A stretch of DNA of 64,000 nucleotides, from assembly GCA_963969595.1 (NCBI GenBank), contig OZ018410.1:3100001-3164000 (forward strand), written 5' to 3'. This document shows, piece after piece, positions 776 through 57,374 of this stretch (position 1 is the stretch's first letter; every line of letters starts with the position of its first letter). This DNA is from Neckera pumila. Taxonomy: Eukaryota > Streptophyta > Bryopsida > Hypnales > Neckeraceae. Under the pieces are notes generated by a model, which was not told where the DNA came from, did not search any database, and saw only the letters and a list, made by a program, of their open reading frames with translations. The position numbers and the translations under genes are program-made.

Positions 776-1681
776 CCCCTAAAGGACCAAGGCCTTTTTT
801 TTGCCCAAGAACTCTCAAAACTGCCATTTCTAGAGCAAAGAGTAAAAAAATCTGAAATTGTTTTTTTTGCACATCCAACCATTAGATCTTATACTTAACT
901 AGTATGAGAATGTGTGGAAAAATCTTCAAAATTTTTGACCGCACAGATTGCAAGATATCTACGTTCAAAGTGAAAAAAACAAGATTTCCAGCACATTGCG
1001 GGACTAGATTTTTTGACTTTGAACATTTTTAACTTAAATTTTTTGCACTATAGAGTTTTGAGCTTTAAATCTTTAAAGTGGAGAATTGAGTTGAGAGTCT
1101 AGGGAAAAAAAAAGAAATTCAAAAAAACTTAATTTTCATTCTTAAGAAAATTGTTAAGTAGAAGATAGTACAAGATAGAAGGAAAATCTAAAATATTAAT
1201 ATCTTTTAGATGGAATTAAAATGCACTAATCCCAATGGTGAGATCGTTCTAGCACAAAAACTAAACCATGTGAAACTTTTCTTCTTGAAAAATTGCAAAA
1301 ATTGCATTCCAAAATGAATCCTATAAGTTATTTTTTTCAAGAAGATGCTCTAATTGCCCAAAAAACAAGATTGTCCATAACTTTCTCATAACAAATCCAA
1401 ATGAAATGAATCAAAGCTTCCCAAATAGGCAAAAATATAATCTATAAGGGAAAAAAAAAATTAATTAAATTTTTTGCAAGAAAATTTTGTTGCCCCCTCT
1501 CCCTTGTTTTGAGCTTATTTGGGCATAACTCTCGTTCTCAGGCACAAATTGAAAAAAAAATTATATTCCCACGAAGCTTATCAATTTTTCTATCTTCAAA
1601 AAAAGTTACAAAAAATCACAACAAAAATTCAGCCCGTAGGTATCTCATTTGTCCCCCCAACGGACAATGGTCCTTTAGGGG
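776..1681 (-). mobile_element. TTAA-flanked element, copy B, complete (906 bp)
   Basis: Complete copy between TTAA at 772-775 and TTAA at 1682-1685. The ends are CCCCTAAAGGACCA and its exact inverse TGGTCCTTTAGGGG, a 14-bp terminal inverted repeat. The core motif lies on the minus strand at about 928-960. No open frame long enough for a transposase is present, so the copy is non-autonomous. Confidence 0.88.
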
Positions 1682-1685
1682 TTAA

Positions 1686-2092
1686 GGGTTAAGGGTTAAA
1701 CAAATGAAATGAATTGAGGTCCCTCTTCAAAGATGTAAAAGGGACCCTTGCCTTATTGGTAACCAATGTTACGAGAATGTGGGGGAGCCAGGGTGACCAG
1801 AAGCAATAAAATAAATTACTCCACTCACTTCGCCTTCCGTTCAGGTCATCATGAGAAGGACTTGAACAAGCTGTCCAGTGTTTGACTTCTGTGCCCCTAC
1901 TGTACAATCTCGGAAGGAAAGATATAACAACTTTATTTTAGGTCCAAATGATACCTTCTGTGCTGGGGTCTTGAAAATCTGTCCTCAGTGCTCGTCGTCA
2001 GTGGACAGAATTTCAACAAAGTTGACGAGTGCCACACGTTCCATAAATCATACAAATGACGTTTCTGCATGGCCTCCATATTCCATGGGGTG
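1686..2092. other. Intergenic, no gene seen
   Basis: Starts with three GGGTTAA units (about 1680-1698) beside copy B, then unique-looking sequence. Short overlapping open frames on both strands show no domain. Confidence 0.4.
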
Positions 2093-2945
2093 AGGTAGTC
2101 TGCTCTTAAAGCAACCTTGTAAGAGTTGAGGGGAAGGTAAAATCTATGAAACAATTTTCAGTAAATTTTTATAGGAAAGAAAAATGCAATTGGGTCAATT
2201 CTCCTTGAAGTCAATTGCACAAAATATCAGTTCCTTTTGGAGAGGCAGTCTTCAACTACCCAATAAAATAATATCAGAATGGGGTCAATTCTCCCATATG
2301 TAAAGGCCTTGAGGCCAAGAAGCCGGGGCGATTCAATAAAACCTAAAAGAGAAAGAGAGAGAGAGAGAAAGAGAGAAGTGCTAAAATTTTTAGGTCCACT
2401 TTACACCTCAAGGCCAAGACAATCCTCCTTGAGGCTGATTGCACAAAATCCAAAGGCAATGATTTGTTGAAAAAAAACTCCATAATATTTTATAATAAAA
2501 GGTTTTTAAAATGAAATCTGACATTGATCCCAAGGCCAAGAATTGGCCTCCCATTTTTGGTGCACCAAATTCAGCGAGTTTGGGCCATATCAACTCATGC
2601 CTTTTTTTAATAAAAAACTCATTCCACCAAATTTGCCTAGTCTCTAGGTGTAAAGGGATTGGGGCTAATTTCAGCGTTTTGTTCAATCCCAAGTGAGGAT
2701 TTTTGACCTCTAACACAACAAATTGGCCTGGCTTCTATGTGTACAATGGGACTAACCCAAGTCATTTCATATTTTTTGGACTTATATGGAATTACTTAGG
2801 AATCTTTGAAATTCAAATGTAGTGGTCACTAAAATTAGTCACCTCCTAAAATGTACACTATTGGTACATTGAAACAAGCAACATTTACCTCTATGTTAGT
2901 GGTCTTTTTAGAACAGAGTCACTTTTAGAGCACCTTACTTTACCT
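2093..2945. mobile_element. AGGTAGTCTGCTC-type MITE, split by a nested element
   Basis: The left end AGGTAGTCTGCTCTTAAAGC and an approximate right-end inverse near 2925-2945 match the complete 307-bp copy at 31553-31859. The interior is also shared (for example ATTGGTACATTGAAA near 2862). About 555 bp of unrelated sequence interrupts it between roughly 2187 and 2745. Confidence 0.6.
2187..2745. mobile_element. Nested dispersed element shared with 33.36-33.89 kb
   Basis: Segments such as GGTCAATTCTCC, CCCAAGGCCAAGAATTGGCC and TTTTTGGTGCACCAAATTCAG recur in the same order at 33373-33880. Its insertion point is inferred by comparison with the uninterrupted MITE at 31553-31859. It contains a (GA)n run at about 2350-2378. 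No coding potential is visible. Confidence 0.55.
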
Positions 2946-3027
2946 ACCATTCTTTGTACTAGATGGTTTGTGTGAGGCCAGTAAATAAAACTAACTTTGG
3001 AAGGACAGGCCCTTGACCACAGATTTT

Positions 3028-3308
3028 CAATAGATGGAATTCGGGGGCCTTGGAGGGTTGTTTCAAGCCCATTTGCCAATCTGGCGAGATTTAGTGAACT
3101 ACGATATGGACTGTCGGAATTGTTTTTTTCCATTTTTATTTTTATTTTATTTTTCAAATATCATTTTAAACAAAAAAAAATTTCAAAAATGACATGGCAG
3201 TTGCTATACCACGTCAACAAGCTACTGCAGTGCGTTCCCGCAGTCTGAAAACGCAAAGGAACGCAGAGGAACTGGCAACCTTCCAAAGCCCCCAAATCCC
3301 TTCTAATG
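3028..3308. mobile_element. CATTAG-ended MITE, copy 1
   Basis: The left end (CAATAGATGGAATTCGGGGG) is a diverged inverse of the right end (CCCCCAAATCCCTTCTAATG). The interior carries ATGACATGGCA and CCACGTCAACAAGC, which recur in the copies at 4300, 52771 and 56035. No coding sequence. Confidence 0.6.
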
Positions 3309-4280: not shown

Positions 4281-4299
4281 CACTATAAGAAATTTGCGT

Positions 4300-4762
<463 letters not shown>

Positions 4763-6430: not shown

Positions 6431-7287
6431 TATGCATTAAGACTAGAGAATATCCATAAAGTTAAATTTTGAAAAGTATTTATTTCATAAATATCAAATC
6501 AATTTTGAAGAACTTTCCTTTCAAAAATTGATCAATTTTTATTTTTTTCCTTTTGACATCTGTATTTACTATTAGCTGAAGATATAGCTTCAATGGATTT
6601 GCAAGACAAAGAAAAAAGTGAAGAAAACATCAACCCTTTTTACAAGTACTAAAATTAGAACCACATGCAAATATTGACTACTTTGTATTACTTTCCTTAC
6701 AAAAATAATTTGACAATAGTAATTATTAAGATAAATCAAATTTGAATGCATTAAAAAGTTAAAGAAGTCCCATCCGAATGAAATGTCCAAAATTAATCAA
6801 ATTTCCATGCCTATATTATAGATTATTTCATTTTCAATTCAAAAACAAAAAATCATGATTTCTCCAAGTCCTTAAATTTTAAGAGATTTTGAATGTAAGC
6901 TTGAACTTATTGTGATTTTTTTGAGATCAATGGAAAAAAATGAAATCCACAATTTTCAATATACACATATTCAATAATATACGGCATCATTCTATAAATA
7001 GAATGCCTATATATTTCTACATTTAAAACCAAGTTAATAGGCTCTCAATTTCAAATTGCAATGAAATACTTGTTTGCGGAAAAGATAAAAGTTTTCAAGT
7101 AAATTATAAAACTAAACTATGAGAGCTTCAAAAAAAATTCTCAATATTTTGGAAGAAAAATTGGAAGTTTAAATTTTATTTTATCTATTAAAGACAAAAA
7201 TTTGGAAGTGCATGAATAGAATAGACAAGTGCTCAATTGTTTTAAAACTATATCTCCAAAAATGAAAAAACCAACCATATAAATTAA

Positions 7288-8208
7288 CCCCTAAAGGACC
7301 ATTGTCCATTCGGGGGACAAATGGGATTTTGGGTAGGTACCTACAGGCTGAATTTTTGTTGTGATTTTTTGAAATTTTTTTTGAAGATAGAAAAACTGAT
7401 AAGCTTCGTGGGAATATAATTTTTTTTCAATCGGTGCTCGGGAACAAAAGTTATGCCTAAATAAGCTCAAAACAGGGGAGAGGGGGCAACAAAATTTTTC
7501 TGCAAATTACTTAATTTTTATTTTTATTTTTTTTCCTTATAGATTATATTTTTGCCTATTTGGGAAGCTTTGATTCATTTCATTTGGATTTGTTATGAGA
7601 AAGTTATGGACAATCTTGTTTTTTGGGCAATTAAAGCATCTTTTTGAAAAAAATAACTTGTAGGATTCATTTTGGAATGCATTTTTTGCAATTTTTCAAA
7701 AAAAAAAGTTCCACGTGGTTTAGTTTTCTTGCTAGAACAATCTCACCATTGGGATTAGTGCATTTTGATTCCATCTAAAAGCTATTAATATTTTAGATTT
7801 TCCTTTGATCTTGTACTATCTTCTACTTAACAATTTTTTTACAAATGAAAACTAAGTTTTTTTAAATTTCTTTTTTTTCCCTAGACTCTCAACTCAATTC
7901 TCTAATATAAGGATTTAAATCTGAAAACTTTGTAGTGCAAAAAAATAAAGTTAAAAATGTTCAAAGTCAAAAAATCTAGTCCCGCAATGTGCTGAAAATC
8001 TTGTTTTTTTCACTCCAAATGCAAATATCTTGCAATCTATGCGGCCAAAAATTCTGAAATTTTTTCTGCACATTGTCATACTAGTGAGGTATAAGATCCT
8101 ACTATTGGATGTTCAAATAAAACAATTTTCAATTTTTTTTACTCTTTGCTCTAGAAATGACATTTTTGAGAGTTTTTTGGCAGAAAAAAGGCCTTGGTCC
8201 TTTAGGGG
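7288..8208 (+). mobile_element. TTAA-flanked element, copy C, complete (921 bp)
   Basis: Lies between TTAA at 7284-7287 and TTAA at 8209-8212. The ends are CCCCTAAAGGACCATTGTCC and GGCCTTGGTCCTTTAGGGG. The core motif is at about 8021-8060. The partner repeat has a single TTAA at this place (26451-26454), so insertion and target duplication are directly visible. Non-coding. Confidence 0.93.
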
Positions 8209-9009
8209 TTAATAGTGCAAGATTTTGAATACAATAGTATAGGCCTTCTTGCTACTAATAAGGACAAATCTTAGATGATTGTGGTCTACTTTGTATAGAC
8301 ACTTGGTGGAATTTGATGGATCTTTTATGGAATCAAATGAAATTTGGATGAAAATTGGTTGATAATTGGACTATTTGAGATAGTATGAAATCAATACAAT
8401 CCACATCATATTGATTTTTTTCTATGAGGGATAACTTAGTAATCAAATTAATTATTTTGTGTTATATGATTTGAATTCAATTCAAAGATATATACTTTTA
8501 AATAAATAAAAAATTGTCCTTGAATTCACTTAAAGCTAGTATTTGGCAAACAATCCTTTCTCTGCATTACTCTCTTCAACAAGTTTGTTGACAATCTTGT
8601 GCCCTGCCTTTGGAACAAGTAATTCCGTCTATAAGCTTTGGTATCGGCTTCTACCACAATTCTTTTTAATATGACAAGGTGAATGGTTCCTATAGTAATT
8701 GGCTAAATGCATAATATGAATTCTATTTTTATCAAATTTTAAGCAAGAGACCAACAATTTAGCTACACTTGTTTTAACTACACTATTCACAAAAGATGCC
8801 ATTAATCCCCTAAGTCCACCAGGTGACTAAAAAAACTCCAATATTGTTTGGAAGTCTAATTTGAGGTACAAGATCAAAAGTTATAATCTTCCATGTCCCA
8901 TAGTGAATTGTCTTTAAATTTTGCAAGCCACTTTCTAAGTAGGTGTGGCACTATTTTTAATAGTCATTTTTTGTGGATCAAACAAATGGTAGAGATACGA
9001 TGCCTCAAA

Positions 9010-13179: not shown

Positions 13180-14834
13180 GGCATTGATTCTTTAATTGAT
13201 ACATCAAAGAAAGCTTTCTGAAACATGAACAAAGAAAAGTTGAACAACATTTTCTTCTCTTGGTAGCAATGCATGGTCCATGCAATTACTATGAGTTGCT
13301 GAACATGGGCAAGGACAAACTATATAGGAAGAGGCTCAAAAATAATTTTAGCATTAACAACTGCCCCTACAAAAGTGCCCAAAACAATCCACACTGGATG
13401 TAGAAATGGAAGTGATTTTATGGGGTGAGAAACTGCCATACCATGTGTGTGGTTTTAAAGTATTGAGCATATGACATGGGTCACCATCATGTGTGATTTT
13501 GCTCATAGTAAAGACCTGAATTTGGTGAGGTCTGCAAAATGGTCTTGAAATGTCAAAAAAAAGCAAGAAAAATTGCAAAAACACATATGAGGTTGAACCT
13601 CCTACTAAAATGCTTCTTAGTCACTCATAACTTCTTGGATTGATGCAAAATTTTAACCACACAAACTAGACTACTATGCAAAACCTTTCTAAATTGTTTT
13701 AATTTTGAAAATGGATACTCTACAAAGAAAAAACAAACCGTCAAAGTTCACTATAATCCAAAAATGTTGGGATTTTGAACTTTGAATTGCTCCCAAACAT
13801 TCAAAACAACTTGGATTGACATGAAAATTTTACCACAATAACTAGACTTCAAAGGAAACATAACCCAATAAATTTTTGTTGAAAAAAAACATTAGACAAA
13901 GGATATATAAGCCCCCAAAGTTGCAGCCATCAAATGCAGTTTGGTGGATTAAAATTGAACTTGTGAACTTTGATTGAATTCTAGAAAGTCATTACATCTT
14001 GGATTGATCTAAAAAATTTACCACACAAACTAGAAAAGAGAACGCAAATTTTTTCCAATAAATATTATTGAATTCAGAGATTGGATGCAAAAGTTACAGC
14101 TCTTTGAATTGAACTTGAAACTATGTGAGGAAACCCTCACTGGGGCGTTTAGGGATTGCAATAAATTTGATTTTACAATGGGGAGTGAATTGAATGGAAG
14201 TTAACTTACAATGGATCATCCTTAGACTCACTGGCTCCATGCAAAGGCATGTTTTGATTCATCCTAGTTGCACCTATGAGCATTACAAGGGACTTAGGTA
14301 CCTCTGACTTAAAAAAATCATATCTTATTCATTGCAAGTTAGAAAATTAAATTTAAAATTTCCATTGCTGTGTTCTTCATTCTCTTTTTCCTACAAAAAT
14401 GCAAAAATGTTTGGGTCCACCCATTTATGCATAGGGGTCTTTTTCCCCTTAGATGAGCACTTTCTGAGCCTTTTACCTTAGCGTCAAGGGGAATTGCCTA
14501 TCATTATGCAGTGACCGGATGACTCCATCAAGCATGCCAAACATTTCATTTTTGCACTTTTGTTGATCATTTTGTTGACCATTTTTTTTCAAATTTGAAT
14601 TGAAAACCAATTTTACAAAACCTAAGATTTATCACTTGAGATAGATGGAGCAGTAAAATATCAATAAGAAGGTAAACTCTTACTCGGTGTTGATTTATGG
14701 TCTTATTTAGCATGGGTGCTAGGATCCAATTCAAATATAAGAAGGGGACAAAATGAATTTCAGTTGAACTTTCCAATTTCCAAATTTCCAATGTTCTATA
14801 AAAGGCATTTTTACAGAGTACATATTAATTTTAA
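13180..14834. other. Intergenic; no gene seen
   Basis: AT-rich. Similar phrases recur within 13600-14130 (AACTTCTTGGATTGATGCAAAAT, ACAACTTGGATTGACATGAAAA, CATCTTGGATTGATCTAAAA), suggesting three or four diverged copies of a unit of about 180 bp. No domain-bearing frame. Confidence 0.4.
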
Positions 14835-16193
14835 CCCCTAAAGTCCCATTGTCCTCTCAGGGAACAAAATGGATTTTGGGCAGGCTCTTACGGTCTCAAT
14901 ATTTGTTGTGATTTTCTGAATTTTTTTGTGAACATAGAAAAACACATTAACCTCCTGAAAATATAATTTCAATCGGTGCCCGGGAGCAAAAGTTATGGCC
15001 CTTAGAGCCCTTTTATTCGTTTGTTGGGCAAAAAAAAAAAAAAAACTTGTAAAAAAATTCATTTTTTTCTCATAGATTATATTTTGGTATACATTTTGAA
15101 ACTTGGATTCATTCTATTTGGAGTAGTAATGAGAAAGATATGGACAATCTTGTTTTTCGGGCAATCTTAGCATCTTCTTGAAAAAATGACTTATAGAATT
15201 CATATTTGAATGCAAATCTTAAATTTTAAATTAAAATTTGCTTGCAAGAAAATCTCACCATTGAGATTATTGTGCTTCAATCTTGTTCCATCTTGGAGCT
15301 ATTCAAGGTTTAGTTTTCCCTTCAATCTTGGACCTACTTCTACTTAACAACCTTTTAATGAATGAAAACTAAGTGTGTGTTTTTAAATTTTTTTTAGAGT
15401 CTCAACTCAATTCTTCAATACATATAATTAGAAATTCAAAATCAATAGAGAAATTCTTTTAAGTTAAGAAGGTTCAAAGTCCCAGAGTGTAGTTGAGCAA
15501 GTTGCAAAAAAAATTTGTTTCCTTCACTTTAAATGCTAATATCTTGCAATCTACATGGTCAAAAATTTTGAAATTTCTTCCACACGTTTTTACACTAGTC
15601 TAATACAAGATCCTATGGTTAGATATGCAAAAAAAAACTTAATGATTAGTAGAAAGAAGTAGAGAATGATTCAAAACACTAAATTGTTAAGAATTTAATT
15701 ATGGATTTATAAAATGCCAATCCCAAGGGTTGTAATGTTGTGATAAACAATATACATCCTAAGATTTTATTTTTCTTGAAAAATACTAAAAAATGGAGTT
15801 AAATAAAGAATTTTAAAGTTTATTTTAGAGTAGGGAATCCATAACTACCCGCAAACTAGAACACCTCATGATTTTCATCTCATAAATCAAAATGGAATGA
15901 TATAAAGCTTTACACGTATATGTAAATCTAGAGGACCAATTTCACAATTTAATTTTTTTTAAAAGTGATTTTTAAAAAAGAAAATTGAGTTGGCCGCCGA
16001 ACATTGAAAATGACATATCATCCAATAACTTTTTAACCATATAATCAAAAGTTCTGAATATTGTTGAACCTTAAAGCTATTCCTTAGGCATATGTTATGT
16101 GAAATTTTCAAAGAAAAAAATTAAAATATCCGTTTGTAGTAATCTGCCTAAAATTGCTATGTTGCCAAAAAACGCCATTTGGTCTTTTAGGGG
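14835..16193 (+). mobile_element. TTAA-flanked element, copy D, chimeric (1359 bp)
   Basis: Lies between TTAA at 14831-14834 and TTAA at 16194-16197, with ends CCCCTAAAGTCCCATTGTCC and TTTGGTCTTTTAGGGG. The first 780 bp resemble copies B, C and P, including the core motif at about 15538-15578. After about 15640 the sequence switches to material shared with the second subfamily and with copy N (GTAGAGAATGATTCAAAACAC, then GCTATGTTGCCAAAAAA). It therefore reads as a junction of two subfamilies. Confidence 0.82.
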
Positions 16194-16525
16194 TTAAATT
16201 TAAAATTTATTTTTATTTCATCCATCAAAAGTCAAACAGCCTTCTTTAGGGCCTAGATTTTTTTTCATGATGTCAATTTCTTTTTCTTTTTGGCTTAATT
16301 ATTTGATTGTAAACAAAAATTCCAAAGAAAGAATCTAAATGTACAATGTTGTAGTGATGGCACATAGCAAGTTTTTTCAAGAAAATAGCTAATAGTACAA
16401 ATGTGAAATCATAAAATATTATTCCAACATATATAGTTGTCAATTGCTAAGGTTTCTTAATTAAAAAATATATAATTTTATTATAAAAAAAATTTAAATC
16501 TACAAAATGTGGTTTAGCTATAATA

Positions 16526-16566: not shown

Positions 16567-16827
16567 TTTTGTATTTGTGTATGTAAGAGTGTATGTAAAG
16601 ATCATTTATAAAGAATTACTATGATAAAAGGAATGCAAAAGAATAATCTTCTTTAAATAAGACCAACAAACTTATACATAAAATTGTAGAGGTTCAACAT
16701 GGAAAACATTTGTTTTTATTCTATATTTTGAAGTTGAGAAAGAATAGTAAGAAAATTATCTCATTTAGATATCAAGAAATTCTACACTTTATAATTTACA
16801 AACTAGGAGGCAAGTGATAGTGTTTAA

Positions 16828-17711
16828 CCTCTAAAAACCCAAGTGTCCCTGTGGGGGTTATTTGGTACTTCGGCAAGCTCATGTGACCTCAATTTTTCAC
16901 ATGTTTTTTTGAAATTTTTTTGGGAGATAGGAAATCTCATTAGCTTTGCGGGAAGATAAATTTCATCAAATTCCGACTTACCCTCCAAAAGTTATGATGG
17001 ATTGAATAAAAATTTCAGTTTGGGAATCTGCTGCCCCTCAGGAATCTGACTTTGACTCCCAAGGGGGCAGCAGAGGTGGCAAGAGAGGAGAGGTGGCAAG
17101 AGGTGGCAAGAGAGGCTACTGTTGTGCCTATTAGGAGGTCATATGAGGCTTTAGGAGCCTATAGATGTTAGAGATTTTGACATTTTTCAAAATTTATTTT
17201 TCCTACTTCTAAATATAAGTGCATTTTTCAATCCACCGTTCAGATTTCCTAGATCAAAAAATGTGTGATGGGATTTTTTTTTTGAAAATGGCCTAGTGTA
17301 TTGTCATTTCTTGGGACACAGTGGCAAATTTTAATTTTTTTGAATATCGGGATTATCTTGGATTGCCTTGAAAATTGGTATGCACATGCCTAACATGTTT
17401 CCCCATAAGAAAAAATTATAAATTGGAGGTCTGTAGTGGGAAAAAATTCAGCAAATGGCGGTCAAAGGCATCTGAAATTTTCGGGCACAGTGGAAAGAAG
17501 AAAAAAAAAAACAGACTTTGAATGCAAATATCTCCCAATCTATACGGTCAAACCTCACGAAATTTTTACCACATGTTTTCACACAAGTTAACTACAAGAT
17601 CCAACGGTTACATTCCCAAAAAATCAAATTTTCCAACTTTTTTGATGAATGCTTTAGAAATGGCAGTTTTGGGTGTTTTTTGAGGTAGAAAAGGCCTTGG
17701 GCTCTTAGGGG
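16828..17711 (+). mobile_element. TTAA-flanked element, copy E (884 bp)
   Basis: Lies between TTAA at 16824-16827 and TTAA at 17712-17715. The left end is CCTCTAAAAACCCAAGTGTCC, the right end GGCCTTGGGCTCTTAGGGG. The core motif is at about 17527-17563. A short tandem of AGGTGGCAAGAG sits inside at about 17072-17117. It is diverged enough to form its own subfamily. Confidence 0.82.
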
Positions 17712-17715
17712 TTAA

Positions 17716-20040: not shown

Positions 20041-20187
20041 TCTTTGAACTTTTGTGTAGAAAGAGGAGGTCATGCACAATAGTTTGACCTCCAAATGAGT
20101 GCTCTTGGGTTGTTTTTTAAGCAAATAATTCCCACTGTATCCAAATGGATGATTTCCACGATGACTAGCCTGGTGTTCTAGGGTTAA

Positions 20188-21058
20188 CTTCTAAAGGGCT
20201 GAGGCTTTTTTTCTGCCCAAAAACACTGAAAATTGCCATTCTATAGCAAAGAGTAAAAAGAATATTTAATGTTTTTTTTCACATCTAACCGTAGGACCTT
20301 ACACCTAACTGGTAATAAAAAGTTTGGGAAAAATTTCAGAATTTTTGACCGCACAGATTGCAAGACATTTGCGTGTGTAGTGGAAAAAACAAAATTTTTA
20401 GCACATTGCGGGACTGGATTTTCTTGACTTTGAACATTTTTAACATAAATTTTTTGCACTACAAAGTTTTGAGCTTTAAATCTTTGTAGTGGAGAATTGA
20501 GTTAAAAGTCTAGGAAAAAAAAGAAACTCAAAAAAGCTTAATTTGCATTCTTAAGAAAATTGTTAAGCAGAAGTGTATGAGATAGAAGAAAAATCTAAAA
20601 TACTAATATCTTTTAGATGGATTTAACATGCACTAATCCCAATGGTGAGACTGTTCTAGCAAGTAAACTCAACCATACAAAAAAAAAAATTGCAAAAATT
20701 GCTTTTAGAAATGAATCCTACACGTTATTTGTTTCAAAAAGATGCTCAAACTGCCCAAAAAACAAGAATGTCCATAACTTCTTCATAACAAATTCAAATG
20801 AAATGAATCAAAGCTTTTCAGATAAACAAAAATATAATCTATGAGAAAAAAAAATCAGAAAAAAAATTCGAATTTTTGCAAATTTTTTTTGCTACCCCCA
20901 CACCCCCACACCCGTCCCTTGTTTTGAGCTTATTTGATTATAACTCTTGTTTCCAGGCACCGATTGTGAAAAAAAAATTATATTCCCACAAAGCTTATCA
21001 GTTCTTCTATCTTCAAAAAAGTTTCAAAAAATCGCTACAAAAATTCAGCCTGTAGATA
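20188..21058 (-). mobile_element. TTAA-flanked element, copy F, right end lost
   Basis: The left end CTTCTAAAGGGCTGAGGC follows TTAA at 20184-20187. The core motif is on the minus strand at about 20341-20373. Similarity to copy B runs until AAATTCAGCCTGTAGATAC at about 21058, then stops about 50 bp short of the expected end, so the right terminus is deleted or replaced. Confidence 0.75.
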
Positions 21059-21735
21059 CTTTGAGAACCAAACATGAGATTCACAGCCCCATGTGAGTGT
21101 AACTTTCAGTGCATTGTGAAGCATTGTGGGACAGACATGTGCCAGGCCAAAGCATCATTCCACGGCCAAATTGTGGAATTTGTGAGCCTTGTGGGAACCT
21201 GACACATCAATCTCCAAACGCAGGCCGGTAATGTGTGAACTGGGAAAATCATGAAAATTCATTCCTTTGTGTGGACTAAGGTAGGCCAGACTGCCGGAGG
21301 CTCAGAAATGGAGCATCTAATGGCCGGTCCGCCTTTTTCATGTATTTCCTTGGACCGGAATATTTTGAGCTCATTTTTCAGACAAAGAGAAATTGATGAG
21401 GAATCTAACCCAAGTGGTTTCGTATTTTTTCAAGCATTTTTGAATTACTTATGAATTTTCAAACGAGTTGGGTTGTAGGTTCCTATTTGTGAGCCTAGGT
21501 CTTTCATAAATGGTTCACTTGCAATTCTAGATTAAAATGGGGAAAGCAAAGAAAATGATTGGCTCTTAAAATCAATAATGTTTTTTTCCTTGATTCATTC
21601 AATGACTATACTAGTAAATTTCAGAACCAACCCATGTCCATTTCACAGCCATTTATAGGGTCCATTCTTAATGCTCGCTCTATTTTACAGCCTCCTACCT
21701 TAATACCAAATCATGTGAAGTTGTATTGTCTACAC
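21059..21735. other. Intergenic with a MITE fragment
   Basis: No gene is visible. About 21395-21460 (GAATCTAACCCAAGTGGTTTC onward) resembles the interior of the AGGTAG MITE at 31668-31720, so a terminus-less fragment of that family is present. Confidence 0.4.
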
Positions 21736-22534: not shown

Positions 22535-22998
22535 GTGTTGTACTCTACTAAATTTTGTTTAGTATTCCATATTCCATAAATGGAGCCCATAGATGGAACA
22601 CTGCACACTACTCATGCATATTCTCTTTAACTTATGGGAGGCAATCCATTCTTGATCCCCCCCTTTGGCAATGTAGACTACTTTCTTTCCATATAGGAGG
22701 AGATGAACAACGATTAATTATGGCATGGATCTTGGCAAAGTTGTGGCACATTGTGAGAGGCTGCAAGACTCTCAATATTGCAACCAACCCTTGGTGGATT
22801 TTGCAACCAGACCCTTGGTCGAAAATAGTAAGGTCTAAATGACCAGTATGGGTTGAAGAGAATCTTCAGCCAAAAAAATTTCATAGTAATTACGTTTTGA
22901 GAAATAAAAATCTGGAAAATTATATAAACCTTCCAAATTCTATTTCTGCACACGAAAAAATTTCCCCACAAAGATACCTACAGATCCGTGTTGATGAA
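22535..22998. other. Intergenic; no gene seen
   Basis: A 95-codon plus-strand frame (22555-22842) has no recognisable domain and no homologous copy in the window. Confidence 0.35.
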
Positions 22999-23937
22999 CA
23001 CCTAAAGGACCATTGTCTTCAAGGGACAAATGGGAATTTTGGGCAAGTACCTACGGGTTGAAACTTTGTCCTCATTTTTTGAAACTTTTTTAAAAAATAG
23101 AAAAATTATTAGCTTCATGGGAATATAATTTTTTTTCAAATGGTTCCTAAGAACAAAAGTTATGCCCCAAACAGCTTGGAACTTGGAAGGAGGGTAGGGG
23201 AAGAAAGGGTAGCAAAAAAAATTTCAAAAATTTGAATTTGAATTTGAATTTTTGAATTTTTTTTCTCATAGATTATGTTTTTGTCTATCTGGAAAGCTTT
23301 GATTCGTTCCATTTTGATTTGTTATATGAAAGTTATAAAGATGAAATCAGTGAAATCTTATTTTTTGAGCAATTAGAGCATCTTCTTGAAAAAACAACTT
23401 ATAGGATTCATTTCTGAATGCAATTTTTACAATTTTTCAAAAAAAATTCCACATAGTTTAGTTTGCTTGCTAGAACAATCTCAGCAATGGGATTAGTGCC
23501 GTTTAATTTCAGAGATATTAATGATTTAGATTTTCCTTCTATTTTATACCTACGTCTACTTAATAATTTTTTGAAGTTTGAAAAGTAAATTTTTGGATTT
23601 TTTTGGTTGTAGATTCTCAACTCCATTCTCCACCATAAATACCTAAAGTTGAAAACTTTGTAGTGCAAAAAATTTTAAGTTAAGAAGGTTCGAAGTCAAA
23701 TAATCTAGTACCGCAATGTGCTGAAAAACTAGGTTTTTTCACTTTAAACGTAGATATCTTGCAATCTGTGCAGTCAAAAATTCTGAAATTTTTTCACACA
23801 TTCTCATTCTAGTCAACTATAAGATCCTACAACTAGGAGTGCAAAAAATCCAATTTTTAAATTTTTTTACTATTTGCTATAGAAATGGCTGTTTTGAGTG
23901 TTTTTTGACCCCCCAAAAGGCCTCAATTCTTTAGGGG
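22999..23937 (+). mobile_element. TTAA-flanked element, copy G (939 bp)
   Basis: The right end TTCTTTAGGGG abuts TTAA at 23938-23941. The left end CACCTAAAGGACCATTGTC follows TGAA, a one-base change from TTAA. The core motif is at about 23752-23790. Confidence 0.85.
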
Positions 23938-24045
23938 TTAAGTGTTTAGAAATGGGTTGCCTCCCTTACAACCTTCGAAGGCAACGCAGAGCATGTGCTC
24001 ACCTCTAATATCTATTTATGCAAAATTCATGGCTTTTTTTTTTAA

Positions 24046-24690
24046 CCCCTAAATGCCCAAGGCTTGTTTTGAGTTTCTTGGAATTTGGTCTAACTTGAAC
24101 AAAATGCCAACATTTTGACAAGTTGTATCAATTTTTTTTGAAATGTAACCGTACAAATTCAAACTAGACATGTAAGAGATCTCATAGGAAAAGAAAACAC
24201 AACAATACCACTTATAGAGCAAAAGATTCTAATGATTGACCATGAGGGTGTTAAAACTGCAAAAGTGATGTAAAGTCTTTCAACCCTCTTTTCACAAGTC
24301 AAATCTAAAAAGTTGGTGACCAAAAAGATTGAGATTAAAGAGCCTAACTTGTATAACCCCAATCAATTTACGGCTTCTTAAAATCTACTCTATAATTTTT
24401 TTAAATTAATTTTGAATGCGAATTTTCCTCCAAGATCTAGTGTATTTGAGGCTCATTTCCAAGAGCTGTCAACATTACGGGAAGTCAAGATTGCACTGGA
24501 TATCCTTGTACAAAATCATGAATAGAAAAATCACTATCATTTATTTTCAAGATCAGATTTTTGATGCTAAAACTAGACTTCAAGAAAAACTTTCTAAAAT
24601 TATAACCTACTAAAAATAACAACATGGTTAGTTTTATTTAACTTCAAAGTTTTGCAAACACCACATTTGGGTGCCTCGGGCATTTAGGGG
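24046..24690. mobile_element. TTAA-flanked element, copy H, subfamily 3 (645 bp)
   Basis: Lies between TTAA at 24042-24045 and TTAA at 24691-24694. The ends are CCCCTAAATGCCCAAGGC and GCCTCGGGCATTTAGGGG. The interior differs from copies A-G and is shared with the damaged copies at 31503-32372 and 53270-54061 (CCCCAATCAATTTACGGCTT). Confidence 0.85.
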
Positions 24691-24694
24691 TTAA

Positions 24695-30322: not shown

Positions 30323-31083
30323 TTCCTAAAGGCCCGGGGTTGGGGGTTCAAGGAGGCATTGTCAAAGGGAGGCATTGTCAAAAAATGATTTTTTTGGTAT
30401 GCTATTAAAAAGTAAAAATATTTTTTTTTTTCTGAAATTTCAACATTACAAAACTCAAGTAAAGTGTTTTGCTAGAGTGAAATAATTTCAGCCCATTTGA
30501 CTGTGCGGATTGAAAGATTATAACATTTGAAATGAGATTTTTTTTTTTTTCATTCTTGTAAAACAAGGTCAGCAAACTTCGGGCCCATTTGGAGTAATTC
30601 AAATGGTGAAAAATTTGAGACAAACATTTGGAATATATGTGATTTCAAGAACTTTGACTTCACAGATTGCAAGATAATAAGACTTGAAGTTAGAAGAAAA
30701 TATTTTTTTTCTTGAAATCACCCCAACATAGCTAACAAAGTTTGACTCTTAGAATGTGATTTGAGGATTAAAATTTGTTTTTCCGGGGACAATTGTATGC
30801 CATATAGTATTAGTCACAAACATGGCAAAATTCAAAAGTTGATGAGCTTTTAAATAAAAGATTCCTAAAAGATTCCCAAATTGCCCAAAAATTTAGGGAT
30901 CATGACTTTTGATTTAGGCAGCCGATCCAAAAAACTATTAAATTTTCACCAAGGGGATAACTTATGTGTTTACACATGGTGTCCAAAATTCATGAACATC
31001 CAACCCAAAATGACTTTGTAAGAACCTGCCCAAGATTTTTTGCGTATGTTGAATGGACACTTGGCGACTTGGTCCTTTATGGG
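30323..31083 (-). mobile_element. TTAA-flanked element, copy R, diverged (761 bp)
   Basis: Lies between TTAA at 30319-30322 and TTAA at 31084-31087. The ends TTCCTAAAGGCCC and TTGGTCCTTTATGGG are mutated versions of the family ends. A minus-strand core motif (TTTGACTGTGCGGATTGAAAG) is near 30487-30525. Confidence 0.75.
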
Positions 31084-31087
31084 TTAA

Positions 31088-32372: not shown

Positions 32373-32734
32373 TTAACCTCAAAAGACCTTTCTATCTCCT
32401 TGGGCAATCTAATGTACAATGGAATAATTAGAATAGTTGATGCAATAGCCAATGGTTCTTTGATTGGGCAGGCTTGTTGACTTTGTACTTGCACAAAGTT
32501 CACATATGTTGCATTGGTATAGCACAATTTATTGATTTGTTTGAAAGAGATTGTTTGACCCAAAGGTTAGATCATGTGAAGCTTAAAGACATTATTTGTG
32601 TAGGAAAAGTAACAGTGAACAGTACAATCTCAACTCCCCTTGTTTCCTTGCCTTACTAGGTTGGCCACTTTCATTTATTTGGTTGCTAACCTACTCAATT
32701 ACTCATGGAAATCCATATCCTAAAATTCCTAAAA

Positions 32735-32848
32735 ATAATGAATTTTTCTATCTTCAAAAAAAAATTCATACAATCATGATGAATGTTGAGACTATAGGAG
32801 CCTGCCCAAAATCCATTTATCCCCCAAGAGGACAATGGGACTTTGGGG
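32735..32848 (-). mobile_element. TTAA element, copy Q, right-end fragment
   Basis: Only the last 110 bp of a subfamily-1 element remain: TCTATCTTCAAAAAA, GAGCCTGCCCAAAATCC, and the end GGACAATGGGACTTTGGGG before TTAA at 32849-32852. The DNA between 32377 and 32735 shows nothing identifiable. Confidence 0.6.
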
Positions 32849-33198
32849 TTAAATTCAAGACAAAACCAATCTATACGAACCAATACACAATAGTGAGCTA
32901 CTAAAAGTTTGTCATAAACTTCACCTAGTGAAATACTGAAATTTTTAACAAGAAAACTATGTATTGAAGAGTAGTAAGAAAAAATGTGAAAGGAGTTCCA
33001 ATAGTGTGAGAGATAGACAAGACAGGGCTGTAGTAAAAACCTATAGAGTCTAAACTACATACAACAACTACATCAATCAAAAAATTTGCGCTTGAAAAGA
33101 ATCCCATATCCATGGCCCCCAATGCAGTGCAAAGGAAACACCATTTCTGAATTTTGCAGGTTAGTTTCATCTTTCATCCTTCATGTATCTTGTCGACC

Positions 33199-34303: not shown

Positions 34304-34347
34304 CCTCTACATTTCTTAGAAGGACAATTAAAAATTCATTCAATTAA

Positions 34348-35259
34348 CCTCTAAAGGACCAAGACCATTTTCTGCCAAAAATCACTCAAAACTGCCATTT
34401 CTATAGCAAAGAGTAAAAAAAAATTGAAATTTTTTTTCTTTCCACATATAACTGTAGGATTTTATACCTAATTAGTATGAGAATGCGTAGAAAAGATTTC
34501 AGAAGTTTTGACCGCATAGAGTGCAAGGTATTTGCATTTTAAGTGAAAAAAACAAGTTTTTTAGCACATTGTGGAAGAAGATTTTTTGACTTTGAACATT
34601 TTTAACTTTAAATTTTTGCACTATAAAGTTTTGAGTTTTAAGTCTTTATAGTGGAGAATTGAGTTGAGAATCTAGCAAAATAAAATAAAATAAACTTAAT
34701 TTTCATTATTAAAAAAATTGTTAAGTAGAAGTAGGTACGAGGTAGAAGGAAAATCTAAAGTATTAATGTCTTTTATACGGAACAAAAATGCACTAATCCC
34801 AATGGTGAGATTGTTCTAGCAAAAAAACTAAACTATGTGGAACTTCTTTTTTGAAAAATAGTAGAAACTGCATTCAAAAATGAATTCTACAAGTTATTTT
34901 TTTCAGAAAGATGCTCTAAGTGCCCGGAAAATTAGATTGTCCATAACTTTTTCATGACAAATCCAAATGGAATGAATTAAAGCTTTCCAGATAGAAAAAA
35001 TATAATCTATGGAAAAAAAAATTCAAATTTTTTTTTGAAATTTTTGCAAATTTTTTTTTGCTACCGGCTCTCCCCTGTTTTGAGCTTATTTGGGCATAAC
35101 TTTTATTCCCGGCACTGATTGAAAAAAATTCTATTCCCAAGAATCTTATCAATTTTCTAACTTCAAAATAACTTTCAGGAAATCAAGACAAAAATTCAGC
35201 CCATAGGTACCTGCCCCAAATCCCAAATGTCCGCCGAACCAACAATGGTCCTTTAGGGG
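34348..35259 (-). mobile_element. TTAA-flanked element, copy P, complete (912 bp)
   Basis: Lies between TTAA at 34344-34347 and TTAA at 35260-35263. The ends are CCTCTAAAGGACCAAGACC and CAATGGTCCTTTAGGGG. The core motif is on the minus strand at about 34498-34534. Closest in layout to copies B and C. Confidence 0.9.
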
Positions 35260-35263
35260 TTAA

Positions 35264-44229: not shown

Positions 44230-44887
44230 TTGCTACTATGCCTACTTATTATTATTAGATTGGACAAATTTTCATATTTTCTTGTTAACAAGTGACAAGA
44301 GGTTCTAATACACCAAAGAATATGACATTTGGATGCCATATGCAAAAGCTATGAAGGGTCAAAAAAAAAATTGGTAGAGGTTCTAGAATTGTGTCTTCTA
44401 CATGGGTGCATATTGATTTTAGCAATGCATAAAGAGTGATGATGGCGATTTTAAGCAAAAGTGTGATTTGGGATAATATGAGATGAGAGTTACGAGTAAT
44501 TCTAGTTTGTGGGTAGGTATAGAGTCCTTGGATTCCAAACCTACCCGCAAATTGGAATCCCTCATAATTCTCATTGCATTAAATAAAATGGAGTGATTCA
44601 AACTTCTCTACTTCTAAATATTTCTTTAGAACCACTCTCAATTTTTTATTTTTCAAAAAAAGTGATTTTTAAAGAATCTTTTTGAGCTGCCCGCCGAGTA
44701 ACAAAAACTACATATCATGCAATAACTTTTTAACCATGTAGTCAATATTTTTGAATTTTGTTGGAGCTAAAAGCTACTCCTTGAGCACATGTTGGGTGAA
44801 ATCTCTAAAGAAAAAAATAAACTCCATTCCTAATGAGTTGCCCAAAATCGCTATGTTGCCAAAAAATGGTGTTTGGTCCTTTAGAGG
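44230..44887 (+). mobile_element. TTAA element, copy N, left end lost
   Basis: The right end GTTTGGTCCTTTAGAGG abuts TTAA at 44888-44891. The right half matches the right half of copy D (GCTATGTTGCCAAAAAA, CAATAACTTTTTAACCAT). The left boundary is not recognisable. Confidence 0.65.
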
Positions 44888-45035
44888 TTAATATTTATCT
44901 TTCTCGTAATATGAAATATAAATAATTATTTAGGAATTCATGAAGCAAATATTGACTTGTTGCTTCAATGAAAATAAATATATTAAGGAAGATTTTAAAA
45001 TGTTAAGATAGTTTTTTATTATTAAATATAATTAA

Positions 45036-46474: not shown

Positions 46475-46548
46475 GTATAGGTTGTGGACTTCTTTTTACA
46501 AATGAGATATGATTGTGAGGTTATGATGTGGTCCATTCATTTCTTTAA

Positions 46549-47463
46549 CCCCTAAAGAACCAACATGCGTTTTTTGGCATTATAGAAATTTCGGGCAGGT
46601 ACATGTGACTAGAGGTTTAAATATTTTGGGCTAAAATTTTAATAGAACTTGGAGATGAGGAATTTCTTTCATGTGCATCAAATTTCATGGCATTTGGAAA
46701 TACAAGTCAAAAGTTATGGCCTAATATGTTGCTTTTTTCACCGGGCGGGCAGTTTGGGCAACTGTGAAAAAATCAGAAATAAAAATTTGAAACTGGTTTT
46801 CTACAATTATATATATGTAGAAAGGTTTGAATCATTCCATTCCAATCATTGAGTCAAAAGTTATGAGGGCTTTTAGTTTGTGGGCAGTTATAGATTCTCT
46901 ACTATAAAAAAAACTTTGTAATCATTTATTTGACTCAGTTTTCAATATTTTTGGAAAAAAATAAAATCCTAGGATGTAGATTGATTATTACAACATTTCA
47001 ACCGTTGGGATTGGCGCTTTTTTAATTCATAAATCAATTCTTTACAATTTAGTATTTTGAATCATTATCTACTTCTTTCTACTTACTATTTTTTTTCCTA
47101 TATGTTGTACAATTCCAAATGATGCAAAAAATTTCAAGCATATTGCCAATTTATTTAGGAAATTGAATTCAAAGAAGCACCACCATTTTGAACATTTTTT
47201 CATTGAAAAATGAGCTTGTGAAGTGCAGCTACCCGGATTTTTGCAGGATTGAAAAATGGTTTTGGAGACTTTGAATGCTTATATCTTTTGATCTTCACGG
47301 TGGAATTATCTGAAATTTTTACCACATGTTGTAATACATCAAACTACAAGATCCTACGGTTACATGTATCAAAAATTGTTTTTTTCCAAAAATTTGGTAG
47401 TTGTATTAGAAATGGCAGTTCTGGAGCGTTTTTGGTGATTACATAGTCAAGGAACTTTAGGGG
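46549..47463 (+). mobile_element. TTAA-flanked element, copy J, subfamily 2 (915 bp)
   Basis: Lies between TTAA at 46545-46548 and TTAA at 47464-47467. The ends are CCCCTAAAGAACCAACATGC and AAGGAACTTTAGGGG. Collinear with copy I throughout and identical in length. The core motif is at about 47279-47315. Confidence 0.92.
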
Positions 47464-47467
47464 TTAA

Positions 47468-48238: not shown

Positions 48239-48242
48239 TTAA

Positions 48243-51361: not shown

Positions 51362-51523
51362 AGACAAGATGAAGCTCCGCAATTCACAAAACAAAGGCGG
51401 AAACCCTAATAATTCCATGAGAGTGGGAATGTGCTTTGGAGCTACAATGTAACTTTGTGGGTGCTAGGATTGTGAAGGCTCAAATTTTGGATGCTTGAAA
51501 TAGAGAGAAAGAGAGAGAATTAA

Positions 51524-52218
51524 CCCCTAAAGTCTTAAGGCCATTTTTTTGTCAAAAATGACTCCAACTGCCAATTTTGCTACGTTCATCCAAGAAAGAG
51601 AAAAAATAATTTTTTTAGAATTTAACCGTAGGATCTTGTACTTAACTTATCTCAAAATATGTGGTAAACATTTCATAGAGTTTGACAGCACAGATTAGAA
51701 GATATTAGTGGAAAAAATTATTTTTTTGAACACTAGAATGCAATTTCAGATGACTTTGACCGCCATTTGAGTGAGATTGTTCTTAGCAAAACAACTAAAC
51801 CACGCGGAACTTTTTTTTTTGAAACATTGTAAAAATTGCATTTAGAAATGAAGCCTTCAAGTTATTTTTTTCAGGAAGATGCTCTATGTGCCCGTAAAAC
51901 AAGATTGTCTATAACTTTCTCATAAAAAATCCAAATGAAACAAATCAAAGCTTTCCAGATAGACAAAAATATAATCTATAAGAAAAAAAATTTTAAAAAA
52001 ATTGCAAAATTTTTTTTGCTACCCTTCAAATGTTATTTTGAGCTTATTTGGGCAAAACATTTTTTTCTGGGCACTGATTGAAAAAAAAGTATTTTCCCAT
52101 GAGGCTTAGCAATTTTTCTATCTTCAATTTTTTTTGGAAAATCATGACAAAAATTCAGCCCATAGGTACTTGCCCTAAATCCCATTTGTCCTTCAAAAAG
52201 ATAATGGGCTTTTAGGGG
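51524..52218 (-). mobile_element. TTAA element, copy O, internally deleted (695 bp)
   Basis: The left end CCCCTAAAGTCTTAAGGCC follows TTAA at 51520-51523. The right end GGGCTTTTAGGGG is followed by TCAT rather than TTAA. About 200 bp of the centre present in B, C and P is missing. The core motif is on the minus strand near 51669-51707. Confidence 0.78.
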
Positions 52219-52314
52219 TCATTTAAGGTCCCACTTTGGGCTCTGAAAAAGCCAGTCTAATTGATTCTTAGACTACATAGCTTTGTATCCTATACTAAAT
52301 AGGTAATTTACACA

Positions 52315-54061: not shown

Positions 54062-54149
54062 TTAATTTATTGCAAGTTTACAAGACATCATGTTTTTCAA
54101 TAGTTTTAAGCAAGACATGTCATAACTTTTGCTTGTCTAGATTTGGAGG

Positions 54150-54960
54150 ACACTTGAAGGTTTAGATAGGTTCCTCTGATCTCAATTTATAGCATGAGTT
54201 TTTTAAAAACTTTTTCGTAAGATAAAAAAATAGATTAGCTTTGGAAAAATATAATTTTTATTTCAATCAGTGATTAGGAACAAAAGTTAAGTCATCCAAA
54301 CTAAAAATAGTTGATCCTATGCAAAAAAACAAACTTGAAGTTTAAATTTATTCTTTATAGATTATAGTTTTGTTTATATAGAAAGATTTATTTCATTCCA
54401 TTTGATTTTGCAATGTAAAAACTATATAACATCTTGTTTGCAAGCAATTGTAGAATTTTTTGAGAAAATAATGTATTATATTTGTTTATAAACTTAAATT
54501 TTATAATTTCCAAAAATAAAATTTAAAGGAGCTTAGGTTGTTTACCTAAAAAATCTTACCTTTAGAATTAGTGTGATTCAGTTCCACCTTAAAACTATTA
54601 ACAATATAGTTTTCACTTCTATATGATGCCTTCTTCCACTTAACATTCTTTTAAAGAATAAAAATTTAAGGTTTTTTTTTAACTAATGTTTACAAATTTG
54701 AACTTCAAAATAAAAAAATCTAATTCAAAATTTGTAATGCAAAAAATTTAAGATAAAATGATTCAAAGTCTTATAATCTAGTACTGAAAGGTGCAAAAAT
54801 ATTCATTTTCTATACTTCAAATTCAAATTTCTTGCAATTTGTCCAATCAAAGATTTTGAAATTTCTTCCACATATTTTTCATATTATTTTAGTACAAGAT
54901 CCTACAATGTGGATACGCAAAAAAGAAAATGCTGAAAAGTTTTGCTCTTTGCCGACTGAT
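54150..54960 (+). mobile_element. TTAA element, copy V, subfamily 1, decayed
   Basis: Collinear landmarks of subfamily 1: GGACACTTGAAGGTTTAG, ATAGGTTCCTCTGATCTC, TAGGAACAAAAGTTA, CTTGCAATTTGTCCAATC (core, 54825-54865) and TTTTGCTCTTTGCC. Both termini are lost. Confidence 0.55.
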
Positions 54961-56034
54961 ATAGTGGTTTCGATTGCTTGATTGTTAATTATAGATTGAT
55001 GAAGAGGAGGCTCTATGTTTACAAAAGCTACATGTAAAGAAGTTTGAATTAGAAACCATACTTGAAATGTGAGTGAATGCTACAAAGATAAATTGAACCT
55101 ATTGTAATGGAATTGCTTATTTTTCAACCAACACATGATGTTCTTTAGTGACTTTGGTAATTAATGTAAAATTTGATTTGATGTGGATAATGTGTGGTAT
55201 TCTTTGGTAATTCCAAATGTTTGGTAGAATCAACTCTAAAAGAATGCTTTGTCATTGTGAGGTGTTGAAAATTCAACCTAGTGGTGAAGTCTATAGAAGA
55301 AACTAACATTGACAAGCTTTTGAAAAGAAAGATTGAGAGATCAACAACAAAATTTAAAAAGAGTTGAGTCATGTAATCACACAAAAAGATGAATTTTAAT
55401 TGCCTTCTATCATGTTTGTTTATCATAAGTGATCTTTTATTATCCCCTTTCATTCAACGCCTCCTTTACCTAATTGTTGAATAATGTAATGTGCTTTTTA
55501 CCAAGTGATTAACTGAAATGAATTGGTCGTATTATATCTATAAATATTTATTTCTATCAATACAAAATAATAGAATCTAGATGGGTCTCTTATATAGCAA
55601 TCAAATAACGACATAAAAACTCCTACTTACAGTATCTTAATTATATTCATTCATTTAGGTTACATAATTTACTTCAATAAAAAAGAATACACTAATAAAT
55701 TTATGAGCTTAATTTCATTTTAGAGAAATATAGACATTTCATTGGTCAAAAACTATAGAGTTTGTGATAGAATATTATCTTTATATATTATTTTTTAATT
55801 TCACTGAAGAAATTATGCTAGTTCTTGTGGTGTTAAATATTACTCCGTAGTATGCAAGCTAATTCAATTAATGTGCCCGTGCTTTAGGAACTTTAGCTTG
55901 CAATAATTTTATTAAAACTATGAAAATTTGCAAGGTAGAGCTGATGTGGTCAACACTATTTCATACAATCTCATATTGGCATTCATCATTCATCCAATTA
56001 TTCACATTAATTAGACCAAATTCATTCCAAAAGT
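54961..56034. other. Intergenic; no gene seen
   Basis: AT-rich. A 102-codon minus-strand frame (55145-55453) has no recognised domain. Confidence 0.35.
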
Positions 56035-56288
56035 CATTAGATGACATTACGGGGGCATTATATGAATGTAAGTTTTCGAAGAGTTCCCCTACGTTTTCAA
56101 ACTTTGGGAATGTAGTTGCAGCAGCTGGCTGATGTAGTACCAATATTGCCACGTCAATTTTATTTTTTTATTTTTTATTTATTTTTGTTATTAATAATAA
56201 ATATTTTTGACAGCCAACACCACTATTCATAGAATCATGCCAAATTGAACAATAGGCCTAAAAGGCCCTCTAATGCCCTCCTCTAATG
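56035..56288. mobile_element. CATTAG-ended MITE, copy 4 (254 bp)
   Basis: The left end CATTAGATGACATTACGGGG and the right end GAGGGCATTAGAGG in inverse (TCTAATGCCCTCCTCTAATG) pair. The interior has GCTGGCTGATGTAG and GCCACGTCA with an AT tract, as in copy 2. Confidence 0.65.
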
Positions 56289-56351
56289 CATTCAATTAGG
56301 GTGTCTCCCTCCATCTAACATTGTTCTTTCCCTCATACTAAATTGATACTA

Positions 56352-56615
56352 AGGCAACTACACCTTAAATTACACAATTAAACAATTCAACATGGCTCCC
56401 ACTATTATATTAGAGTTTTTTTTGTAGGGTCTTGTTTAGTCAAAACAGGATTCTAGAAACTCTTAAAATGCATTTTTTAGACACTATGTGAACAAACTAA
56501 GAATTTTCAAAGTGCAAAAAATAGATGTTCCTAAAAGCGATCATAGATACTCATGAATAATGGAAATATATTTTTGACAAGAATCTCTAGTGTGCAATTT
56601 TGGATGTAGTTACCT
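56352..56615 (+). mobile_element. AGGTAACTACACC-type MITE, copy 4 (264 bp)
   Basis: The ends are AGGCAACTACACCTTAAA and TTTGGATGTAGTTACCT, flanked by TA. Its right edge makes the TTAA (56615-56618) into which copy S is inserted. Confidence 0.78.
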
Positions 56616-56618
56616 TAA

Positions 56619-57374
56619 CTCCTACTAACCCAAGCAACCACTTTCTGGTTGTTGCCCTATTTGTTGAATTGCTCACTTTTAGATTTTGAGTTTTTTGAAA
56701 CATAATATTTATTTCTAAAAAAATAGATTGCAATACAAATCCAATGGCAATGGTTTCATCAATTCCAAGTTAAATTCCACCTTCTGAAAATTTTCAAAGT
56801 TAAGTGGTGTAATATAGTTTATAGCTCGCTTTTTGGGTTCAGTTTGGGTATGAACTAAAAGTTAGCCAACAAATGTGCCTTTTTTCCACCTCATAAAGGT
56901 CAAATCCACCTCAAAAAAGGCAGATCCATAGGGTTCAAGGAGAAGAGAAGTGTCCCATTTTGATTTTCTCTTGCAAACACTACTCAAATTTCAGTGATCA
57001 CCGTGCATTGCAAGCTTGACTAAGAATTGAAAAATTCTTGGAATGTTATGAAATTTTACATATACATTTTCAACGCTCTTATCTTTCACTGAGCACAAAA
57101 AGCCATCATTTCAAAATATTCTCACAAAGATATGCTCCTTCAAAGTGCGCTACCCTATATTTCCATTGACCCAAGAAAAACTTTAAAAATAAATATCTCC
57201 AAAATTGTGGGGTCAAATAATCTGAAATTTTTTGAGGTGATCAATTTCAATGTTAAATTCAAGATTCTATGGTTTCATTCTATCCAATCTCATAAAAAAA
57301 TGAGAAAAAAATTGCTCAAGGTGTTGGCAGTATAGACCCATTTTGAAAGAACACCCCCCTTGGGTTATTAGGGA
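56619..57374 (+). mobile_element. TTAA-flanked element, copy S, subfamily 4 (756 bp)
   Basis: Lies between TTAA at 56615-56618 and TTAA at 57375-57378. The ends are CTCCTACTAACCCAAGC and TTGGGTTATTAGGGA. The core motif is at about 57183-57225 (AAATATCTCCAAAATTGTGG then GTCAAATAATCTGAAA). Confidence 0.85.

Follow-up and report, generated by a model that had tools for sequence, protein, structure and literature searches.

A very abundant family of short TTAA-bounded repeats in a probable moss genome, almost certainly belonging to the piggyBac superfamily

The piggyBac transposon is a standard gene-delivery tool and is known mainly from animals; the ends of the element of Trichoplusia ni (T. ni; IFP2) start with CCC, as do those of the elements considered here. 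We describe short repeats in a 64-kb window, the whole stretch of DNA analysed, and conclude that they are almost certainly short non-autonomous members of the piggyBac superfamily, with transposase-bearing partners elsewhere in the same genome. The present elements resemble the T. ni element in their TTAA target and in the alignment of its three catalytic aspartates. Possible further likenesses are a Cys/His-rich C-terminus recognised by eye in the frames of three genome stretches (L029, L031 and L032), and a palindrome that, at one end, lies beside the terminal repeat at roughly equal distance. At the T. ni left end, bp 17–33 form a palindromic repeat to which a dimer of the Cys-rich domain binds (PMC7351741). 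The differences concern the host, the terminal and palindrome sequences and the length, 2472 bp in T. ni (PMC10803768) against 5.4–7.3 kb; the transposase-bearing open frames of the present elements measure 478–894 amino acids (aa), provisional values for a comparison with T. ni. A second relative with a solved structure, piggyBat of Myotis lucifugus (E 5e-25), has a mammalian host and is likened here by its transposase. Corals and the ciliate Blepharisma also have abundant short non-autonomous elements, miniature inverted-repeat transposable elements (MITEs) that are perhaps linked to piggyBac, a name frequent in the papers concerned (PMC2872659, PMC9942856); these hosts are not plants, and the likeness is one of description.

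In the window, the end core CCCCTAAAGG is found at 24 sites at up to one mismatch against 2.64 expected, a count reached by none of 100 shuffles, and TTAACCCCTAAAGG at up to two mismatches at 25 sites against 0.58 expected. TTAA stands directly outside 6 of 7 exact CCCCTAAAGG cores and 13 of 17 cores with one mismatch; with two mismatches it does so in just 5 of 35, so that these last cores are mostly chance matches. TTAA-adjoining ends no more than two mismatches from CCCCTAAAGG number 24, with none past position 52,222. Seven clear short elements of 0.65–0.93 kb carry TTAA at both borders, six of them measuring 0.89–0.93 kb and one 0.65 kb; six were paired by at least 12 matching bases among 20 at their ends, and the seventh (16824–17715) was found separately. 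The window itself gave no tblastn match to seven transposase queries at E 1e-3, which agrees with the statement of a preliminary description of this DNA that no copy encodes a transposase.

Transposases are found elsewhere in the genome, a 339.5-Mb assembly of 18 contigs. A search with the profile PF13843 gave 872 first-look candidates, and all of the 116 that were scored lay above the cut-off (best 4.6e-80), the matched part being free of stops in 35; the same profile found nothing in 14 control genomes. Complete elements around such genes could be mapped in three stretches. The element in L030 (1589–8888; 7,300 bp) runs from TTAACCCCTAAAGGACCAAGGCC to GGACAATGGTCCTTTAGGGGTTAA, has the same ends as the window elements and holds an 844-aa open frame; that in L029 (1881–7514; 5,634 bp) has the close-variant end CCCCTAAAGTCCCA and an 894-aa open frame with an apparent Cys-rich end; that in L031 measures 5,371 bp, with ends CCCCTTGGGG and CCCCTTGAGG and TTAA on both sides. 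Frames within all three match PF13843 (5.5e-76, the L030 value, 4.9e-81 and 9.7e-78), and the window repeats have both ends and subterminal sequence in common with these transposase-bearing elements. Compared by phmmer with proteins of solved structure (E 0.001), the transposases matched only those of T. ni piggyBac (8.7e-26) and piggyBat; Asp 268, 346 and 447 of the former align with aspartates in the stretches TVDE, TMDN and GVDVADQ, the DDD triad of a DDE_Tnp_1_7 transposase. The first 20 transposase loci retrieved, of 4.1–4.2 kb each, showed no TTAACCCCTAAAGG end at up to two mismatches, because the elements are longer than these stretches. The piggyBac identity and the autonomous partner elsewhere that the preliminary description had proposed are both supported, and the profile search inside full-length relatives that it had recommended is what the L029 and L030 elements answer.

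The long elements have some structural peculiarities of their own. Relative to the transposase, which has the same direction in both, the L030 and L029 elements have their ends exchanged: the opening 553 bp of the former match the closing 564 bp of the latter in inverse orientation. Bases 161–569 of the L030 element recur as an inverted second copy at 4932–5337 (77%), and the element may be a composite; its bases 5469–6152 (684 bp) are 91.5% identical to their own reverse complement. In L031, a 428-aa open frame at 3041–4327 lies directly upstream of the transposase frame and is perhaps its N-terminal part.

Perfect terminal repeats of 14 bp, CCCCTAAAGGACCA in the L030 element and CCCCTAAAGTCCCA in the L029 element, start with CCY or CCC, as do CCCCTTGGGG and CCCCTTGAGG of L031. 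After the TTAA, the L030 element agrees with a consensus of 12 copies of the window's 929-bp element over the outermost 21 bases of one end and the outermost 19 of the opposite end. At one end, a 19-bp palindrome of the type TTGTCCC-GGGACAA occupies bp 15–33, with a stem of 7 in L029, 8 in L030 and 7 in the consensus, and one end of L031 carries a different palindrome of 21 bp at bp 15–35 with a stem of 9. By analogy with T. ni, we infer that the palindrome is a putative binding site for the Cys-rich domain.

The members of the family in the window, and the fragments and doubtful cases among them, are as follows.

1..556, no strand assigned: short non-autonomous element truncated by the window edge, of which the right part is present; TTAA end at 553–556.
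772..1685, + strand: complete 914-bp element including both TTAA; left end CCAAGGCC.
7284..8212, + strand: complete element of 929 bp, both TTAA included; the palindrome lies in its left end; query for the genome search.
14831..16197, no strand assigned: probable composite; left end at 14831, right end at 16197 from another subfamily, each with TTAA.
16824..17715, + strand: 892-bp element, TTAA on both sides; left end three mismatches from TTAACCCCTAAAGG; its right 555 bp share 72% identity with the right part of the 5.6-kb L029 element.
20184..21061, no strand assigned: left-end part of an element (TTAACTTCTAAAGG).
22995..23941, + strand: 947-bp element flanked by TGAA on the left and TTAA on the right.
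24042..24694, + strand: complete element of 653 bp, CCCCTAAATG subfamily, TTAA on both sides.
27749..28671, + strand: complete 923-bp element, TTAA on both sides; paralogous empty sites with a single TTAA.
30319..31087, no strand assigned: possible 769-bp element, TTAA on both sides; weak termini (10/20); outside the library coverage.
31937..32376, no strand assigned: fragment of the element family.
32725..32852, no strand assigned: fragment similar to one end of the elements in L029 and L030.
34344..35263, + strand: complete 920-bp element, TTAA on both sides.
44477..44891, no strand assigned: right part of an element, TTAA-terminated.
46545..47467, + strand: complete 923-bp element, TTAA on both sides.
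51520..52222, + strand: element flanked by TTAA (left) and TCAT (right).
54142..54952, no strand assigned: fragment of the element family.

At 543–566, two element ends stand back to back with a common TTAA at 553–556; in the stretch that begins at 557 one end was recognised.

Coverage was computed with a library restricted to elements whose two borders each show three or more of the four TTAA bases. The family makes up 19.4% of the window with the short elements as library and 19.8% when the three long elements are added, both values with the window's own copies included; with elements from elsewhere only, the figure is 16.1%, and with a reversed library 0.0%. The preliminary description had put coverage at a quarter of the window, which must be lowered to about a fifth, and had extended the family to position 57,374, whereas the last TTAA-flanked end is reached by 52,222 and family similarity stops at 54,952; a repeat at 57077–57378, which shares 79% identity with the right flank of the 46545–47467 element, may be the reason for the longer range. 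Its common terminus stands, but the number of about 20 copies is better given as nearer 24 ends, and its TTAA on both sides of most copies holds for the seven clear short elements and, with reserve, for the composite-looking 14831–16197 and the weak 30319–31087, the others being one-ended or decayed (22995–23941, 51520–52222).

Insertion at TTAA was examined further at empty sites. The flanks of 23 elements were joined keeping one TTAA and compared with the window and with sampled genome stretches, and 5 of the 23 matched across the junction, in 25 rows that are not independent, as L004 and L005 overlap, L006 overlaps both L007 and L008, and L033 duplicates part of the window. The empty sites are paralogous, not allelic. 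TTAA is intact in 8 of 8 rows for L043, in 5 of 5 for 27749–28671 and in the one row for 7284–8212, where a 6-base gap is adjacent; the 5.6-kb L029 element gave 10 rows with no gap within the four bases and an exact TTAA in 5. A single row for 22995–23941 was rejected as an empty-site case, being a repeat match with a poor alignment and no clean TTAA. For four insertions, then, the paralogous empty site has one TTAA, or what appears to be a decayed one, and the filled site has two, which is the piggyBac pattern of insertion at TTAA with its duplication.

The family extends over the whole genome. TTAACCCCTAAAGG occurs 18,843 times (9,337 forward and 9,506 reverse) and its backward-read control twice; with A, C or G as the first base the count is 729 (control, 6), which means that T precedes TAACCCCTAAAGG (TAACCCC) at 18,843 of 19,572 places, or 96%. 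The preliminary description had suggested examining whether ends throughout the genome adjoin TTAA: CCCCTAAAGGACCA occurs 11,486 times and is TTAA-preceded in 9,941, in line with the expectation from about 4% decay per site and in agreement with a mean divergence of 5.1% of the 12 copies of the 929-bp element from their own consensus. TTAA borders these copies on the right in 12 of 12 and on the left in 11 of 12. A genome search with the 929-bp copy at 7284–8212 gave 11,466 first-look candidates. Among the 40 that were scored, the 39 matches other than the query are 89–91% identical to it, 36 of them spanning exactly bases 1–929 and three coming within five bases of this, while six shorter matches adjoin some of the full-length ones. 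In a small spot sample, 12 stretches of 8 kb at round-number positions on nine long contigs, the family share is 13.4% with the full library, 12.4% with the short elements only and 11.7% held out, ranging from 2% to 41% per stretch. TTAA precedes 8 of 8 exact, 10 of 14 one-mismatch and 10 of 63 two-mismatch cores in these stretches, one of which (L048) encodes a transposase-like stretch.

We propose that relatives of 5–7 kb elsewhere in the genome would make a piggyBac transposase, which would recognise the 14-bp terminal repeat CCCCTAAAGGACCA or a variant of it, perhaps aided by the adjacent palindrome at one end, excise the short element and insert it into a TTAA that becomes duplicated; the short elements would then move in trans by a cut-and-paste route. 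Several observations weigh against this scenario or parts of it. Among the L029 empty sites, TTAA is altered in 5 of 10, by one base in four and by two in one. At the opposite ends of the present elements no palindrome was found within 80 bp, whereas the T. ni element has one at both ends (PMC7351741), and only 2 of 8 window elements tested carry a palindrome at bp 15, with stems of 6. Stems of at least 7 are present in 253 of 3000 random 80-bp stretches, and of at least 8 in 113 of 3000; because random stems are this frequent, and because L029, L030 and the consensus are related, only the position of the palindrome and the unrelated one of L031 carry weight. The L030 frame is interrupted by a stop ahead of the Cys-rich end. 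L032 has no clean pair of ends, so that paired ends were mapped in just three of four stretches of 9.9 kb, and the 929-bp element can be aligned with the three long elements over only about 100–300 bp per end, at about 62–78%, its interior being without a match. The L029, L030 and L031 families are thus no more than candidate sources of the 929-bp element. Together with the presence of at least seven transposase lineages among those sampled, the incomplete mapping and the short terminal alignments with L029 and L030 would suit an arrangement in which the short elements are still piggyBac but are moved by another autonomous family, the 5.6- and 7.3-kb families being cousins. We consider this possible though rather unlikely, considering that the L030 element and the consensus have not only their first 21 and 19 bases but also the palindrome in common.

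Accounts that place the elements outside piggyBac fare much worse. Kolobok and Sola3 also duplicate a TTAA target, and either could be thought of on that ground; the word TTAA can be counted 23 times in a paper on Kolobok (PMC6004289). Elements with matching ends carry PF13843, however, and piggyBac and piggyBat are the only matches among solved structures, and although no search for a Kolobok or Sola transposase was made, we hold such an assignment to be very improbable. A Tc1/mariner-like or Stowaway-like family with ACCCC ends, a TA duplication and a chance preference for TTAA is suggested by the borders themselves, since TTAACCCC...GGGGTTAA also parses as T-TA-ACCCC...GGGGT-TA-A; TA duplication of the Tc1/mariner kind leaves the outer bases unconstrained, whereas T precedes TAACCCC here in 96% of cases, a piggyBac transposase sits between such ends, and we give this parsing next to no credence. 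The few named relatives of the transposase are rotifer, aphid and beetle proteins, which might raise the thought that animal or other DNA contaminates the assembly. Against this stand the 18,843 exact ends, the presence of the family in every spot stretch across nine long contigs, the plant genes in the same window and an identity of just 29% to the named rotifer and aphid relatives, so that contamination has a practically negligible probability.

The plant genes are a MYB-domain frame and a PMR5N/PC-Esterase frame, in keeping with the land-plant host of the preliminary description. Among named proteins, the MYB frame is matched best by those of Ceratodon purpureus (39% over 94%) and of Physcomitrium patens (32% over 90%), two mosses whose proteins outscore every angiosperm among the best 120 of 1005 matches, with five unnamed proteins scoring above them; judged from this one gene, the host is probably a moss. 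Within an open frame upstream of the PMR5N/PC-Esterase frame lie tandem repeats of 81 and 72 bp (59694–59979). The window also contains an (AAAT) microsatellite of 49.5 units with 98% matches (4414–4611) and an inverted repeat at 35937–36206, with arms of 131 nucleotides that are 97% complementary around a spacer of 8 nucleotides, a possible source of hairpin RNA.

Among the literature matches listed (titles, the starts of abstracts and passages, with subscription papers, Repbase and supplements outside the search), we found no description of piggyBac in a moss. One paper states in a passage that piggyBac has been isolated from plants among others (PMC10813416), and a plant review lists the superfamily (PMC10794571). 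No word starting with 'piggy' occurs in the draft genome paper of the moss Pleurozium schreberi (PMC6723128), and a review of land-plant transposable elements lacks the word piggyBac by word count (PMC9033089); a further candidate, PMC10619864, was rejected, its word being 'piggybacking'. The nearest likeness among these matches comes from the fern Ceratopteris richardii, whose repeat table has a line labelled PiggyBac with 1230 copies and 122,417 bp, or 0.00% of the assembly; the passage gives no element, ends or transposase, and describes a trace against 12–13% in the spot stretches of the present genome (PMC6890710). As far as these matches go, the present family is a new member of the piggyBac superfamily, very abundant and in a land plant, and the surprise is its host and its load.

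At least seven transposase lineages were sampled in this genome. In a tree of 49 rows (the 7 lineages with 38 of 40 and 4 of 16 relatives from two protein searches; arbitrary root, some branches long), they interleave with environmental proteins, which are up to 64% identical, and with most of these they stand on one side of a branch (99/98) that has the rotifer and aphid proteins on the other. The 40 and 16 relatives include no plant name, most rows being without an organism name, and our guess is that the environmental ones come from mosses. Among viral contigs, 71 stretches matched a peptide pattern, and none encoded a relative of the transposase. The interleaving would agree with piggyBac having long resided in mosses or having passed repeatedly from one moss to another. 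Short copies are about 10% apart, while some transposase loci on different contigs are 98.6–99.5% identical over more than 4 kb (L009–L011; L015, L016, L019 and L025; L021 and L027), the compared stretches lying within the element and not covering separate flanks; from this identity, the near-identical loci probably spread recently. We would give about even chances to the broader picture of several old piggyBac lineages in mosses without a described land-plant counterpart, which here make up more than a tenth of the DNA, have recently been active and are perhaps among the heaviest piggyBac loads in plants.

If roughly a tenth of a probable moss genome is piggyBac, the host range of the superfamily would be widened. 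Such a genome would offer a natural plant system for the spread of TTAA elements and for how short copies become more numerous than their source; it may also yield transposases adapted to plant cells. Should the palindrome work as in the insect element, the asymmetric recognition of the ends seen in the cryo-EM (cryogenic electron microscopy) structure would be old.

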